Source: a virus
Length of the DNA stretch: 64,000 nt
Virus record (IMG/VR): IMGVR_UViG_3300010371_000001
Coordinates: 1 to 64,000 of that record
Strand: one strand, 5' to 3'
Each line of letters begins with the position of its first letter. Within the stretch, counting starts at the first letter, position 1. The position numbers were made by a program, and so were the translations under genes. The notes under the pieces are model-generated. The model ran no database searches and had not been told where the DNA came from. It worked only from the letters and a program-made list of their open reading frames with translations. Shown here piece after piece: positions 4,638 to 13,485 of this stretch.

Positions 4638-4993
4638 GAGCGGTCGTCACGCCGCTGGATTATCGCCGCATGGTGGATGCCCAGGAAAGCGAGAAAGCCT
4701 TTCAGGCACGTGTGCTGGAACTGGCGGCGGTAACAGGCTGGCATAGTTATCATACGTATGATTCGCGCCGTAGCCAGGCGGGCTATCCCGATCTGACGCT
4801 GGTACGAGGAACGCGGTTGATTTTCGTGGAACTGAAAACACAGCGCGGGCGCATGTCCCCAGCACAGAGGGCGTGGCGCGAGGTGTTGCTGGCGACGGGC
4901 AAAGTGGAATATTATTGCTGGCGACCGGCTGATTGGCCAGAAATTGAGCAAGTGTTGGCACCGGAGAGAGTGCGAAGGGGGAGAGCGGCATAG
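4628..4993 (+). CDS. VRR-NUC domain nuclease, 121 aa
   Basis: This is a stand-alone VRR-NUC (PD-(D/E)xK superfamily) protein. The core reads GYPDLTLVRG, then IFVELKTQRGRMSPAQRAW, then a Trp-Arg-Pro-x-Asp-Trp motif near the C-terminus, which is the usual order. Asp in PDL and Glu-x-Lys in VELK are the expected metal-binding residues. Phage VRR-NUC proteins are thought to act as structure-specific or Holliday-junction-type nucleases, often together with SNF2-like helicases. A helicase of that class lies at 11.2 kb. The protein is of normal length for the family. Confidence 0.88.
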   Translation: MAVRAVVTPLDYRRMVDAQESEKAFQARVLELAAVTGWHSYHTYDSRRSQAGYPDLTLVRGTRLIFVELKTQRGRMSPAQRAWREVLLATGKVEYYCWRPADWPEIEQVLAPERVRRGRAA

Positions 4994-5287
4994 ATGGAAG
5001 AAACGAACACGCCAACGACAAAACCTTATCCGCCTGATATGTCAGGCATAGGTAAACCCAAGTACGGAACGTTCGTGCAAGAGGCAACAGCGGCCATCAA
5101 GACACATGACCGTGCCACACTGAAAGCAGTGTTTCGGCGGTTTCACGTCACGTGGATGGCACGAGAGCAAGCGACACGGAACCCCATAAAGCAAGCCGAC
5201 GATCTAGAGGATGCATTAGACGCCTTAGGAGTTGTTTTCGGCAGCCTATTAGATGAATGGGACGAGGGGGCATCCAATGGAAATTGA
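4994..5287 (+). CDS. Hypothetical protein, 97 aa
   Basis: It starts directly after the VRR-NUC stop codon and overlaps the ParB-like gene by 11 nt. The N-terminus is Pro/Thr-rich; the rest is helical (FVQEATAAIKTHDRATLKAVFRRFH). I recognise no family. Its position between a nuclease and a DNA-binding protein hints at a DNA-related role. Confidence 0.6.
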   Translation: MEETNTPTTKPYPPDMSGIGKPKYGTFVQEATAAIKTHDRATLKAVFRRFHVTWMAREQATRNPIKQADDLEDALDALGVVFGSLLDEWDEGASNGN

Positions 5288-6416
5288 ACTAATCCACATT
5301 CAGGCAGAGCATACCATGAGTCCGCGCGGCAAAGTCAACAGCAAACATGTTGATGAATTTGTCGAAATGGCGGGCGAATGGCCGCCGATCCTAGTGCGGC
5401 CTATTCAGCATGAATGGTATACCCATCAACTCATTGACGGATTCCATCGCTTTGACGCCGCCCAACGCCTCAATTACGACATGATTGATGCGCACGTGGA
5501 GGAGATGGATGACGCGACGGCACTGGCGCGGGCGCTCAGAGAAAACTTGCACGGGTTACCTATGACGCAAGAGGAACGACAAGCGCGCGTAGTGCAACTA
5601 ATGAAAGAATTCGGGTGGAAACTAGGACAGATTATCCTTGAAACGGGCATCAAGCTTCGTCAGGCAGAGCGATATATTCAGGCAGTACAGGTAGATGATG
5701 CAATTGCGTCCTCAGGACGCAATTCGCCAGAGCCACCACCACAACTAACTATTCATCAAAAAGCGGCACTCGCCCCACTGGTTACGCCGCCTGAAAAGAC
5801 CGGCCCCAAGCCCAAAGCGCCGCAAGGCCCGCAACTCATGCCTGTGCCAGCCGCTACGCCTAAGCCTGATCCCAAGGCAACACAGCGCGCAACGGCACAA
5901 GCCGCACTCCCGGCTGTTGCCAAGATTGTTGAGAAGGAAAAAGATACCAAGGTCATTCGCGCCATCTCGGATGCGGTTTTAGACGCCCCTGAGCATGCAG
6001 AGGACATCGCGCAAAAGGCCATTGGCGATAATCTAGCACCTGATGCCATCCGCCACATGGGCAAGGTGCTTGCCAGCCCTGAGACCCCGCCAGAATTGGC
6101 AGAAGACATCAAACGGCCTGGCACCATGATTCGAGATGTGGCGGGCAACATGGCGGCATCAGAGCCGCAACGCATGGTAGCGACCGCATTCAAGCAGCAA
6201 CCAGAGATCATCGCAGAGCCATTCACCTCATATCTTGTGGCGCTAAACGGCTTTTTGAAGGTGGATGATGCTATTTTAGCAGCATGGCTGGAAACGGCTG
6301 ATCATAAACAAATGGCGCTTTGCGAAGGCATTTTTGCCTCCGTTGAGGGGTTCTTCACTCACGTTCGTGAGTGCATCAAAAACCAGCGGCGCGACTCGTT
6401 GCGCCTACTTTCGTAG
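5277..6416 (+). CDS. ParB/Srx-fold protein, 379 aa
   Basis: The start at 5277 follows GAGGGGGCATCCA. Residues ~1-95 form a ParB/sulfiredoxin-type domain, with the LIDGFHRFDAAQRL motif typical of the nucleotide-binding region, then ALRENLHGLPMTQEER, which resembles the HTH-proximal part of ParB. A KorB/HTH-like helical region lies near 100-145. A long Pro/Ala-rich linker and a helical C-terminal half follow. Chromosomal ParB proteins bind CTP and segregate DNA; phage homologues are more varied and can regulate transcription or methylation. No ParA lies beside it, so partition is not implied. Confidence 0.8.
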   Translation: MEIELIHIQAEHTMSPRGKVNSKHVDEFVEMAGEWPPILVRPIQHEWYTHQLIDGFHRFDAAQRLNYDMIDAHVEEMDDATALARALRENLHGLPMTQEERQARVVQLMKEFGWKLGQIILETGIKLRQAERYIQAVQVDDAIASSGRNSPEPPPQLTIHQKAALAPLVTPPEKTGPKPKAPQGPQLMPVPAATPKPDPKATQRATAQAALPAVAKIVEKEKDTKVIRAISDAVLDAPEHAEDIAQKAIGDNLAPDAIRHMGKVLASPETPPELAEDIKRPGTMIRDVAGNMAASEPQRMVATAFKQQPEIIAEPFTSYLVALNGFLKVDDAILAAWLETADHKQMALCEGIFASVEGFFTHVRECIKNQRRDSLRLLS

Positions 6417-7208: not shown

Positions 7209-7394
7209 GTGAAAGACAAGGAACCACCACCGCTACCTATTGACCATCAATTTCGACGGCCACCAGCGCGACCGGATGATTTTCGGGAATCAAGCAAGAA
7301 GAGCAACACAACTACCGCCCTGGTATTCGTCTTCATTACTTTGGCGCTGCTCATGCTTGCATTCAGCATCTTTGTATTAAGGGGGCAGATATGA
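7209..7394 (+). CDS. Single-pass membrane protein, 61 aa
   Basis: A GTG start follows the preceding stop by 0 nt. The first ~35 residues are polar, Pro- and Arg-rich; residues ~36-57 form a hydrophobic helix (TALVFVFITLALLMLAFSIF). This predicts an N-in single-pass protein. It overlaps the Ntn-hydrolase gene in ATGA, so the two are likely coupled, but a functional link is untested. Confidence 0.6.
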   Translation: MKDKEPPPLPIDHQFRRPPARPDDFRESSKKSNTTTALVFVFITLALLMLAFSIFVLRGQI

Positions 7395-7978
7395 CCTGTA
7401 TCGTAGGCTTGACACATGCCGGTGGCGTGACGTTGGGAGCGGACAGCCAGGTTACTACTGGCTGGGTACACGCGCCGCTGGCTGATTCACAGGGCAAGAT
7501 CTTTCGCGTGGGGAAGATGCTGATTGGCGGTACAGGGACGTTGCGCCAATTGCAATTGGCGCAATATGCCTTGGCACTTCCTGAACATCCATCGGATATG
7601 GCGTGCATGACCTATCTCGTCACGCGCTTTGTGGACGCCATGCGTGATTGTCTCAAAAACGGTGGCCATGCCACCAAAGATAAAGACCAGGAAAGCACCC
7701 CAGGTGCTTTGCTGATAGCCTATTATGGTCGGCTGTTTAATCTCGCCTCTGACTATGCCGTCCAAGAAACTGCCGACTCCTACTATGCCGTCGGCTCAGG
7801 TCAAGAGGTGGCTCTAGGTTCGCTGCACACCAGCGCCCGCATGGGGGAACTGTTGTCGCCAGAGAAGCGCGTCACCTGGGCATTGGAAGCAGCGGCGACG
7901 TTCAGCAATGGCGTGGGCGGGCCATTCGTGATTGAGACACTGGCGAATGAAGCTGCTAAAGAGAGTGAGGCCGCATGA
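7391..7978 (+). CDS. Proteasome/HslV-like Ntn-hydrolase, 195 aa
   Basis: The N-terminus MTCIVGL...GGVTLGADS matches the HslV/20S proteasome beta-type fold. After Met removal Thr1 would be the nucleophile, Asp17 (in GADS) sits at the canonical place, and a Lys (GKIFRVGK) lies near position 35 where catalytic Lys33 is expected. GSGQEVALG supplies the usual Gly-Ser motif near the middle. Length is close to HslV (~175-200 aa). No propeptide is needed because the Thr follows Met directly. No HslU or other AAA+ unfoldase is encoded in the window, so it would need a host partner or act alone. Substrate unknown. Confidence 0.85.
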   Translation: MTCIVGLTHAGGVTLGADSQVTTGWVHAPLADSQGKIFRVGKMLIGGTGTLRQLQLAQYALALPEHPSDMACMTYLVTRFVDAMRDCLKNGGHATKDKDQESTPGALLIAYYGRLFNLASDYAVQETADSYYAVGSGQEVALGSLHTSARMGELLSPEKRVTWALEAAATFSNGVGGPFVIETLANEAAKESEAA

Positions 7979-8178
7979 TGGCGAAACAGACGGCGAAGAG
8001 TCGCGCGGCGCAGGGGAAAGCGCCGCAGACGCGCAAGGTAAAGACAACACCATACACCGCAGAGGCATGTGCCATTGCATCGCTGAACGCGCCCATCACG
8101 CTGCGCACGGTAAAACTGGCGCACTTGCTGGCGCGCATCACCGCCGAACACATCACCACTCTGCCAAAGGCCAGCTAA
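7975..8178 (+). CDS. Small basic protein, 67 aa
   Basis: It overlaps the protease gene at ATGATG. The N-terminal ~25 residues are Lys/Arg/Gln-rich and probably disordered (AKQTAKSRAAQGKAPQTRKV); the rest is an amphipathic helical segment. Coupled translation with the Ntn-hydrolase makes it a possible partner or substrate of that enzyme, which is inference only. The longer frame that reads across it belongs to the integrase and starts later. Confidence 0.55.
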   Translation: MMAKQTAKSRAAQGKAPQTRKVKTTPYTAEACAIASLNAPITLRTVKLAHLLARITAEHITTLPKAS

Positions 8179-8180
8179 CG

Positions 8181-9836
8181 ATGAAACCACAGAAGCAGGA
8201 TCTCCTGCATTTTCAGGGCGTGCCGCCACCAGGGGACGGGGCGCGCGTCGCCACCTACCGGCGGTATAGCTCCGGAAAGCAGAAGGCCACCACGTTGCAG
8301 AAGCAGCAAGATAGCATTGAAGAATCGCTCGATGAACTGCATCCAACGTGGCGCATCCTGCCTGACGGCGAATACGCCGATCCGAAAAAGACGGCGCGCG
8401 ATGACACATTCGAGAATCGCCCCGGCTTACAGCAACTCATTGCCGACGCTCAGGCGGGGAAATTTGACGTCGTGATTGTCGAGTCTGTGGATCGGTGGTC
8501 GCGTTCATCGGCGGTGACGTGGAACACACTGGCCATCCTACATGCGTGTGGCGTCTACTGGATGACCACTGACGGCTTCGATAGCGTCACTATCCGGCAG
8601 GAAGGCACGTCGGCATCATTCGCCCACGCCGCAGAGGCAGCGGCCCAGGTGTCGCGCACGATCAGCAAGAAGGTGGTCAGGGGCAAGCGCACGCGCACGA
8701 AACAGGGCTATCATGGCAGCCACGCACCCTTTGGTTATCAGCGTGGCGAACTGGATGAGAATAACCGGCGCAACTATGAGCCGCACCCGGATCTCTTTCC
8801 GGCGCTGGCCATCATCCGTGATATGAGCATCGCAGGGCAAACGGATCAGGACATCGCCAGCGAGTTGAACCGTCAAGGGTACTACGCGCCGCCAACGGAC
8901 CAGGGCCAGCGTGTGAAGGGGTTGCATGATGAGTCAGTGCAGCACATGGATAAGCGACCGATTACCGCGCGTCTCATTGTCGGCACCCGGCACAATCGCT
9001 TCTATGTACGCTTCCAACCTGATAGCGACCGGGGTATCACCTGGACAAAGCGCGAGGGCGTGGAACGTGAGGGACGCCACGTGGCGGCATGGACGCAAGA
9101 GGAATGGGCGGCGATGCAAGCGGCAAAGCGACCGATGCAGAATCGCCCAAACGCCACGCCGCGCGCCCGGCGCACCTGGCCGTTCGGCGGCATCATGATT
9201 TGCCAGCAATGCGGACTGGTGATGCAGTGCGCCGCACATAAACGCTACAAAGAGCGGGGCGACCTTCTCTGCTACTATCAATGCCGCCGAACAAGCGCAT
9301 GCCGTCCGCAATCCGTCCGGGCTGAATACCTGGAAGATGCATTCGGCGCGCTCTTGGAACATCTGGATGATGCAGGATGGCGCGAGACACTGACGGCACT
9401 GGTACAGCAAGACGTGGAACCACCGCCTGACCACGCCGCCGAACGCGAGCGGCTAGAGACGGCCATCCGGCGCGAGAATATCAAACTTGATGCGGGCGGC
9501 ATCACAGAAGCAGAGTACAAGCGCAATGTGAAGCGGCTACGCGCGGATCTCGCTCGCGTCCCTATACCGCGCGCCAATCCGGTGCAAGAGCGCCAGCACC
9601 AGGCCGCAGAGACGATGGCAACCATCGCAAAATGCTGGCAAGCCGCGCCACTCACCGATAAGCGCGAGATGACGACCCTACTCCTGCAACAACCCGGTGC
9701 GGTGTACGACCGGCGCGATAAGCGCATCGTTGCGGTGCGACCGCATGATGAATTCGCGCTGGTGTTTCAGGCGGCACTCGGATGGGAAATGCGGGATAGT
9801 TGGCTCTGGCATCCAGCACAAAGGGAGGTCGCATGA
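8181..9836 (+). CDS. int: Large serine recombinase, probable integrase, 551 aa
   Basis: ATG 8181 gives a typical large serine integrase. Residues 20-165 are the resolvase catalytic domain: YRRYSSGKQ places the nucleophile at Ser30, and VDRWSRSS is the conserved Asp-Arg-x-x-Arg region. The recombinase domain follows (residues ~180-300), then a zinc ribbon (CQQCGLVMQC...CYYQC) at ~340-375, and a coiled coil near 420-470. Such enzymes join phage attP to host attB across a 2-bp core without host factors, and need a separate directionality factor for excision. The - strand excisionase-like gene immediately downstream is a candidate. No attP can be named with certainty. Confidence 0.92.
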   Translation: MKPQKQDLLHFQGVPPPGDGARVATYRRYSSGKQKATTLQKQQDSIEESLDELHPTWRILPDGEYADPKKTARDDTFENRPGLQQLIADAQAGKFDVVIVESVDRWSRSSAVTWNTLAILHACGVYWMTTDGFDSVTIRQEGTSASFAHAAEAAAQVSRTISKKVVRGKRTRTKQGYHGSHAPFGYQRGELDENNRRNYEPHPDLFPALAIIRDMSIAGQTDQDIASELNRQGYYAPPTDQGQRVKGLHDESVQHMDKRPITARLIVGTRHNRFYVRFQPDSDRGITWTKREGVEREGRHVAAWTQEEWAAMQAAKRPMQNRPNATPRARRTWPFGGIMICQQCGLVMQCAAHKRYKERGDLLCYYQCRRTSACRPQSVRAEYLEDAFGALLEHLDDAGWRETLTALVQQDVEPPPDHAAERERLETAIRRENIKLDAGGITEAEYKRNVKRLRADLARVPIPRANPVQERQHQAAETMATIAKCWQAAPLTDKREMTTLLLQQPGAVYDRRDKRIVAVRPHDEFALVFQAALGWEMRDSWLWHPAQREVA

Positions 9837-11199: not shown

Positions 11200-13485
11200 A
11201 TGGTAGCACCAACAGCCGACTACGGCGCGTTTTTGGCCAGCAAACGTATCACGGCTCAGCCGTGCGGTTTTGATGTGAGTGAGCGCGATATCAATCCGAT
11301 GCTGTTCCCGTTCCAACGGCGGATCGTCCAGTGGGCCGTGCATCGTGGACGGGCGGCACTCTTCGAGGAATGCGGCCTTGGCAAGTCGCTACAACAATAC
11401 GAGTGGGCGCGCATCATCAGTGAGCATGAGCATCGCCCCGTTTTGATTCTTGCCCCCTTGGGCGTGGCGGTACAGAGCGTGGATGAGGGGGCAAAATTTG
11501 GCATCCCTATCACGCTTTGTCGGACCCAAGCCGATGTGCAATCAGGGATCAACATCACCAATTACGACATGCTGCATCATTTCGATCCCGCCGCATTTTG
11601 CGGGATCGTCCTTGACGAATCGAGCATCCTCAAGTCGTTTGGTGGCGAAGTGCGCAAGGAAATTACGGAGTTTGCTCGCATCATCCCCTATCGCCTGTGT
11701 TGCACCGCCACGCCAGCTCCGAACGATCTCATTGAACTGACGAACCATGCCGAATTCCTAGACATCATGAGCGGCAAAGAGATCATCGCCTTGTTCTTTA
11801 CGCAGGATGGCAACACCACCCACAAGTGGCGACTCAAGGGTCACGCCCAAGACGAGTTTTGGCGGTGGATGGCATCCTGGTGTATTGCTATTCGCAAGCC
11901 GTCGGACTTGGGATTCAGTGACGAGGGTTACACACTGCCGAAACTGCATATCCATCAGGTGACAGTGAAAGGGACCGCGCGCCCCGGTCAGATGTTCGCT
12001 GTGGAAGCACAGACACTGGAAGAACGGCGCGATGCCCGACGTGAAAGCCTCTCCGAGCGCGTTGCGGCGTGTGCCAAATTGGTGGCGAAAGAACCGGATG
12101 AGCCTTGGCTTGTGTGGTGCGATCTCAACATTGAGGGTGAGTCTCTCACAAAAGCCATTCCTGGCGCGGTGCAAATCACTGGCGCAGATAGCCGGGACCA
12201 CAAAGAAACAGCGATGCGCGATTTCATTAAGGGTACAACACTCGATCTGGTAAGCAAGCCCTCTATCTGTGGTTTTGGTCTGAACCTGCAACATAGTGCG
12301 CGTGCGGCATTCGTTGGGCTATCGGATAGTTTCGAGCAGTTCTATCAGGCGATCCGTCGGGAGTGGCGTTATGGGCAGACCCGCGAAGTCCATGCCTATG
12401 TCATCACATCTGAGACAGAAGGGGCGGTGGTTAAAAATATCCAACGCAAAGAGAAGCAGGCTAGCCAAATGATGGAAGAGATCGTCAAGCATATGGCTGG
12501 CCTGTCCTTGGCTCATGCGGAACGCAGCGAGATGGAGTATGAAGAAGCCGTCACTCAAGGGCGCGGCTGGACGCTATACCTGGGCGATAGTGTGCTACTG
12601 ATGGATGCACTTGATGATAATAGCGTGGGTCTTACAGTCACATCGCCGCCCTTCCCTGGCATGTATGCGTACACCAACAGTTCCCACGACATCGGTAATA
12701 CCACCACGATTGATGAGATGGTGGCCCACTTTCGCTACCTGATGAGCAAAGAGAAACTCTATCGCGTCACGATGCCTGGACGCATGGCGTGCATCCACCT
12801 CTGCCAACTCACGGCTATGAAGAGCCGTGAGGGATATGTCGGGCTGCACGACTACCGGGGTCGGGTCATTCAGATGATGATCGAGGAGGGATGGGTATTC
12901 GCGGGCGAGGTCACGATTGAGAAGAATCCCCAGGTGCAAGCAGTACGCAACAAAGAACGCGGCTTACTCTTTAAGACTCTCGCCACGGATGCCAGCCTCA
13001 TGCGCATGGCCTTAGCTGATTATCTCATCTACTTCCGTAAGCCAGGGGATAATCCGGTTCCGATTCACGCCGGAATGAGCAAGAAATACAACCCCAACGG
13101 CGGATGGATTACCGAGGAAGAGTGGATCGAGTGGGCATCGCCTGTCTGGCATCGCCAGGGTAAAGCATACCCCAATGGCATCCGTGAGACGGATGTGCTG
13201 AACGTCTCAGCGGCGCGGGACACAAATGATGAACGCCACCTTTGCCCGTTGCAGTTAGGCGTCATTGAGCGCGCCGTTAAACTCTGGTCAGCACCTGGCG
13301 ATCTTGTTCTCGACCCCTTCAATGGCGTTGGCAGCACAGGCTATCAGGCACTGCGTTTTGGTCGGCACTATGTTGGTTTTGAGTTGAAGCGGTCATACTG
13401 GCAATCAGCGAAGGCTAATCTTGAACGCGCCGCTCGTGAGAAAGCCCAGCCGGGACTATTCGATGAACTCGATGAGGTGGCCTAG
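11200..13485 (+). CDS. SNF2-like helicase fused to DNA methyltransferase, 761 aa
   Basis: Two enzymes are joined. Residues ~30-420 are an SF2 ATPase: ECGLGKS (Walker A, ~57-63), LDESS (DExx motif), CCTATPAPND (motif III) and QAIRREWRYGQ (motif VI, with its arginine fingers). Residues ~455-745 are a beta-class amino-methyltransferase: TSPPF near 480 (catalytic motif IV) comes before DPFNGVGSTG near 704 (AdoMet-binding motif I). The order, with motif IV first, defines the beta group; it could make N4-methylcytosine or N6-methyladenine. The fusion could protect phage DNA or couple remodelling to methylation. No restriction nuclease domain is seen. Confidence 0.9.
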   Translation: MVAPTADYGAFLASKRITAQPCGFDVSERDINPMLFPFQRRIVQWAVHRGRAALFEECGLGKSLQQYEWARIISEHEHRPVLILAPLGVAVQSVDEGAKFGIPITLCRTQADVQSGINITNYDMLHHFDPAAFCGIVLDESSILKSFGGEVRKEITEFARIIPYRLCCTATPAPNDLIELTNHAEFLDIMSGKEIIALFFTQDGNTTHKWRLKGHAQDEFWRWMASWCIAIRKPSDLGFSDEGYTLPKLHIHQVTVKGTARPGQMFAVEAQTLEERRDARRESLSERVAACAKLVAKEPDEPWLVWCDLNIEGESLTKAIPGAVQITGADSRDHKETAMRDFIKGTTLDLVSKPSICGFGLNLQHSARAAFVGLSDSFEQFYQAIRREWRYGQTREVHAYVITSETEGAVVKNIQRKEKQASQMMEEIVKHMAGLSLAHAERSEMEYEEAVTQGRGWTLYLGDSVLLMDALDDNSVGLTVTSPPFPGMYAYTNSSHDIGNTTTIDEMVAHFRYLMSKEKLYRVTMPGRMACIHLCQLTAMKSREGYVGLHDYRGRVIQMMIEEGWVFAGEVTIEKNPQVQAVRNKERGLLFKTLATDASLMRMALADYLIYFRKPGDNPVPIHAGMSKKYNPNGGWITEEEWIEWASPVWHRQGKAYPNGIRETDVLNVSAARDTNDERHLCPLQLGVIERAVKLWSAPGDLVLDPFNGVGSTGYQALRFGRHYVGFELKRSYWQSAKANLERAAREKAQPGLFDELDEVA

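Follow-up and report, generated by a model that had tools for sequence, protein, structure and literature searches.

The closest solved relative of the protein considered here is BPH, the betaproteobacterial proteasome homologue (5ovs, 5ovt, 5ovu), a tetradecameric double ring without a propeptide, which has a long, acidic pore loop and has lost the contacts to HslU; no AAA+ partner of BPH has been found, pull-downs included (PMC5777263). Purified BPHs are inert on standard peptides and on casein, although epoxomicin labels Thr1 (PMC5777263). Proteasome homologues of phages, named AAH, PPH, and CPH, were described by Fuchs et al. in 2021, and no co-occurring AAA+ partners were found for the novel homologues of that study (PMC8665760). 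AAH and CPH belong to group I, around BPH, and occur in phages and varied bacteria; PPH occurs in phages and their hosts, is about 140 residues long, and lacks helix H2 (PMC8665760). The presence in phages of HslV-type genes without HslU was pointed out already in 2020, from the two HslV-like ORFs of the Salmonella jumbo phage pSal-SNUABM-04 (PMC7823757). Widespread as the phage proteasome relatives are, we came across no report of a function or substrate for any of them. The protease described below is a new member of these relatives.

The window, a stretch of 64,000 nucleotides, belongs to a virus record of 102,273 bp that may be incomplete. A sequence-only reading of this DNA had proposed an HslV/proteasome-like protease without an unfoldase, and the ORF was confirmed at exactly the coordinates given, 7391-7978 on the + strand. 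It encodes a 195 amino acid proteasome-like (BPH/PHROG 1040) threonine peptidase subunit, starts with ATG just 3' of a purine-rich stretch (GGGGG) resembling a ribosome-binding site, and has an N terminus that reads MTCIVG, so that Thr1 is codon 2 (7394-7396). Only one copy is carried by the source phage, as compared with two in pSal-SNUABM-04. The gene sits in a tight run of co-oriented genes and, as had been read from the sequence, is coupled through ATGA start/stop overlaps both to a membrane peptide upstream and to a small basic protein downstream: the former is a 61-aa ORF with a GTG start and one predicted membrane helix (7209-7394, + strand), and the latter (7975-8178, + strand) has 67 residues, a net charge of +9, and no family match. 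A large serine recombinase (integrase; phrog_95) follows directly in the same run at 8181-9836 (+ strand), and the run also includes a ParB-like protein (5253-6416). Elsewhere in the window, a 761-aa protein (11200-13485) consists of a SNF2-type helicase fused to an N6/N4 DNA methyltransferase, and a pentapeptide-repeat protein is encoded at 1135-1899.

By profile search, the protein matched PHROG 1040, "peptidase HslV family", with an E value of 3.3e-26 over residues 1-193; the match to Pfam Proteasome was weak, just under the cut-off (E 5.4e-4). The best solved relatives in a single-sequence search were BPHs (E 1.6e-8 and 8.3e-6), and a profile of 82 relatives gave 3.2e-14 for BPH and 2.4e-12 for HslV. 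Phage proteins recovered by tblastn were up to 44% identical to the window protein (E 7e-32). AlphaFold2, run on the monomer with an alignment of the 82 relatives, predicted a confident proteasome-beta fold (pLDDT 94.3, pTM 0.89) in which both helix pairs are present, helices 51-60 and 72-90 being seen. The Foldseek comparison to HslV and proteasome beta subunits, which had been proposed as a check, placed BPH ahead of HslV: the top six matches in the PDB were all BPH chains (5ovs, 5ovt, 5ovu; best E 7.7e-14, TM 0.77), followed by HslV and 20S beta subunits, and the best 50 of the 979 matches at E<=0.001 were all proteasome-like. BPH is thus the top match by both sequence and structure and shares with the window protein its fold, its catalytic residues, the lack of a propeptide, a long pore loop, and the lack of a detected AAA+ partner, but the two proteins are only about 26% identical, and the window protein is phage-borne, with a pore loop that is not acidic. 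PPH is likewise a phage-borne proteasome-like protein, but the window protein is not a PPH because it is too long and contains helix H2. An AAH assignment is plausible; the spread of the relatives is compatible with it.

The proteasome-like, Ntn part of the original proposal was therefore borne out by fold and profile, but the name HslV was not. HslV (ClpQ) has the same fold, Thr1, Asp17, Lys, and GSG as the window protein, yet curated HslV models (TIGR03692 and NF003964) gave no match at E<=0.01. The true HslV sequences used for comparison came from bacteria whose genomes also encode a homologue of the window protein. In a tree from which two mistranslated HslV rows were left out, the HslV rows lie beyond a branch with SH-aLRT 99, and the window protein lies on the other side of it. 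The family of the window protein lacks the RTDRxLRxLE segment, and its pore loop (the linker between H2 and the following strand) is longer than in the HslV proteins of homologue-carrying bacteria, HslV being marked by a short linker with basic pore residues; the misread L119_HslV row was left out of this comparison. HslV was present alongside the homologue in 7 of 10 bacterial genomes, and these are therefore two distinct genes. PHROG 1040 is a direct match, yet its name overstates the kinship to HslV, and the window protein argues against that database label for its family.

The window protein residues Thr2, Asp18, Lys36, and G135-S136-G137 correspond to Thr1, Asp17, Lys35, and Ser135 of the mature protein; the Thr1, Asp17, Lys near 35, and GSG originally listed as being in place are thus all present. 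Thr2 is equivalent to Thr1 of Td-BPH, and Asp18, Lys36, Gly49, and Ser136 align with Asp17, Lys37, Gly50, and Ser139 of that protein, the roles of which are given in PMC5777263. There is no propeptide because the threonine directly follows the start Met. Among 113 aligned homologues, the nucleophile is Thr in 105 and Ser in eight, and hence Thr or Ser in all 113; the Asp is retained in 113 of 113 and the Lys in 111, with one of the exceptions probably an alignment slip. Conservation of nucleophile and Asp holds down to about 25% identity. The Thr count is biased, as most of the 113 were gathered with a pattern containing MTCI. A 16-row set, in which the window protein is joined by 15 phage proteins that tblastn recovered without that pattern, is a fairer test because the collection scans used an MTCI-type pattern; it contains 15 Thr and one Ser at the nucleophile, with Asp and Lys invariant. 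The GSG motif is more variable: most relatives in IMG/VR have Cys for its Ser (GCG), and L020 (8001-8558; 49-50% identical), the closest relative, has TAN in its place; catalysis within the family may accordingly be altered or tuned. The window protein itself retains the canonical GSG and is probably active. With it, the family gains a clean member that is well modelled and whose active site looks intact.

The absence of an AAA+ partner, originally claimed for the window, extends to the 102,273-bp record: no AAA_2 domain (PF07724, HslU/Clp-type) was detected anywhere in this possibly incomplete sequence, and its sole AAA match is a sub-threshold Walker-A stretch within a DnaC-like helicase loader. 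Nor was an AAA+ unfoldase found among the families of 116 immediate neighbors of homologues, as covered by the 25 commonest families of each scan.

The explanation that we favor, and consider probable as a whole, is that the window protein represents, in a phage, the group I proteasome-like proteins of bacteria (BPH/AAH type) and functions as a BPH-like, self-compartmentalizing, ATP-independent threonine peptidase encoded by an accessory gene. This explanation is based on the sequence, the fold prediction, the conserved active site, the lack of a detected partner, and the existence of a separate head protease. Thr1 would be exposed once Met1 is removed by the peptide deformylase and methionine aminopeptidase of the host, and would then act as the nucleophile at the N terminus, with Lys35 and Asp17 activating it and Ser135 assisting. 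By analogy to BPH, the most likely assembly of the subunits would be a homo-oligomeric double ring in which the active sites are enclosed and the entrance bears a pore loop. Substrates would then be unfolded, small, or loosely folded proteins that enter past the pore loops and are cleaved within the chamber, without ATP and without a dedicated AAA+ unfoldase. To the phage, the protein would probably be of benefit as an accessory in taking over the host or in proteostasis, and not in virion assembly. The pore loop is as long as that of BPH and aligns with the Td-BPH loop without a gap. Four points count against this explanation: the inertness of BPHs on the substrates tried (PMC5777263); the TAN of L020 together with the prevalence of Cys at that Ser in the family; the charge of the pore loop, which has three acidic and three basic residues (counting K and R) in NGGHATKDKDQESTPGA, or near balance, unlike the acidic loop of BPH; and the possible incompleteness of the record, outside which an unfoldase gene may lie.

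The protein might instead be a processing enzyme or protein ligase of high specificity (cf. archaeal connectase) that acts on one or a few phage or host proteins, possibly to shut off the host or to counter its defences, and perhaps without forming a ring. Proteasome-like proteins do include a monomeric specific ligase (PMC8665760), and both the lack of activity of BPH on general substrates and the frequent Cys at position 135 across the family would fit such an enzyme; however, helices H1-H2, which are missing in connectase, are present in the window protein, and no conserved neighbor is fit to be a dedicated substrate. We consider this unlikely. It is also improbable that the protein supplies the proteolytic core for a host AAA+ unfoldase (HslU or another), docking on it and so redirecting host degradation to substrates chosen by the phage. 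HslV is the second-best match by both fold and profile, and a true HslU is present in 8 of 16 homologue-carrying bacterial genomes, but HslU over the curated cut-off is missing in the other eight, several of which are incomplete MAGs but which also include a 7.8-Mb Kouleothrix assembly. The window protein lacks the RTDRxLRxLE segment of the HslV pore and has a longer pore loop than HslV, and BPH, the closest solved relative, has lost its HslU contacts. The takeover of a host HslU, one of the roles originally suggested, is consequently weakened, both by the eight genomes without HslU and by the loss of HslU contacts in BPH (PMC5777263). That the protein is a catalytically silent scaffold or remnant, its fold kept for another purpose, would accord with the lack of known activity for BPH or Anbu (PMC5777263) and of GSG in L020, but is very improbable given a nucleophile and Asp retained in all 113 homologues to about 25% identity, and a Lys in 111.

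Processing of phage proteins had also been suggested. A head maturation protease is the product of another gene of the phage (phrog_9427; 40118-42652, + strand); the proteasome-like protein is therefore not the capsid protease, and a role for it in processing head proteins is unlikely; the Microbacterium phage LeeroyJenkins likewise carries both a head maturation protease and a proteasome-like gene. In the window, the proteasome-like gene adjoins the integrase and is distant from the head genes. The further suggestion of a defence unit was dropped for want of PADLOC matches; a counter-defence role is possible.

Homologues were found at no fewer than 127 IMG/VR loci, as well as in 28 records of sequenced phages, and the relatives span phages, alphaproteobacteria, and Bacillota. 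A scan of IMG/VR with the single protein gave no matches; a four-row alignment was productive, and the 16-row alignment was too diverse for scanning. Homologues also occur in Geobacillus virus E3 and in LeeroyJenkins (gene 16), phages with a cultured host, and the role of BPH-like proteases is thus open to genetics, where the biochemistry of the bacterial proteins has so far yielded no activity. The surroundings of the gene in large virulent phages are often nucleotide-metabolism and other early-type genes (ThyX, MazG, dCMP deaminase, thymidylate synthase, and DHFR), whereas terminase, portal, or HNH genes are often close by in smaller ones. The search for conserved neighbors in related phages, also proposed as a check, revealed no partner gene common to the whole family among the homologue neighborhoods. 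No homologue of the 61-aa or the 67-aa flanking protein occurs next to the other members of the family, so that both are private to the source phage, and a 72-aa flanking protein gave only a chance-level match. An HD-domain metal-dependent phosphohydrolase is encoded directly upstream (-1) in seven loci (L045, L046, L047, L049, L052, L079, and L080), but these are confined to one lineage of related large phages, and the hydrolase was rejected as a family partner. In two Vibrio phages only (L012, 3498-3995; L016, 4283-4771), a peptide deformylase is encoded upstream, at a distance of a few genes from the proteasome-like one, and could help to expose Thr1.

Two adjacent proteasome-like genes were present in three phage contigs (L063, 7427-8558; L071, about 7431-8570; and L072, about 4698-5815), and both copies of each pair have Thr1, Asp, and Lys. 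The upstream and downstream copies form separate clades (SH-aLRT 100 and 86, respectively), which suggests one old duplication that has been kept since, and the two products may perhaps form a two-subunit ring. This side finding holds more promise than the single gene of the window. A broader proposal, in which phages of this family build an autonomous proteasome-like chamber for the selective, ATP-independent destruction of regulatory or defence proteins of the host, some jumbo phages having evolved a two-subunit version from the conserved tandem pair, seems to us quite unlikely at present. The homologue of Pseudoalteromonas phage J2-1 (L009, 5001-6167) is, at 388 amino acids, extended at its C terminus by about 190-200 residues.
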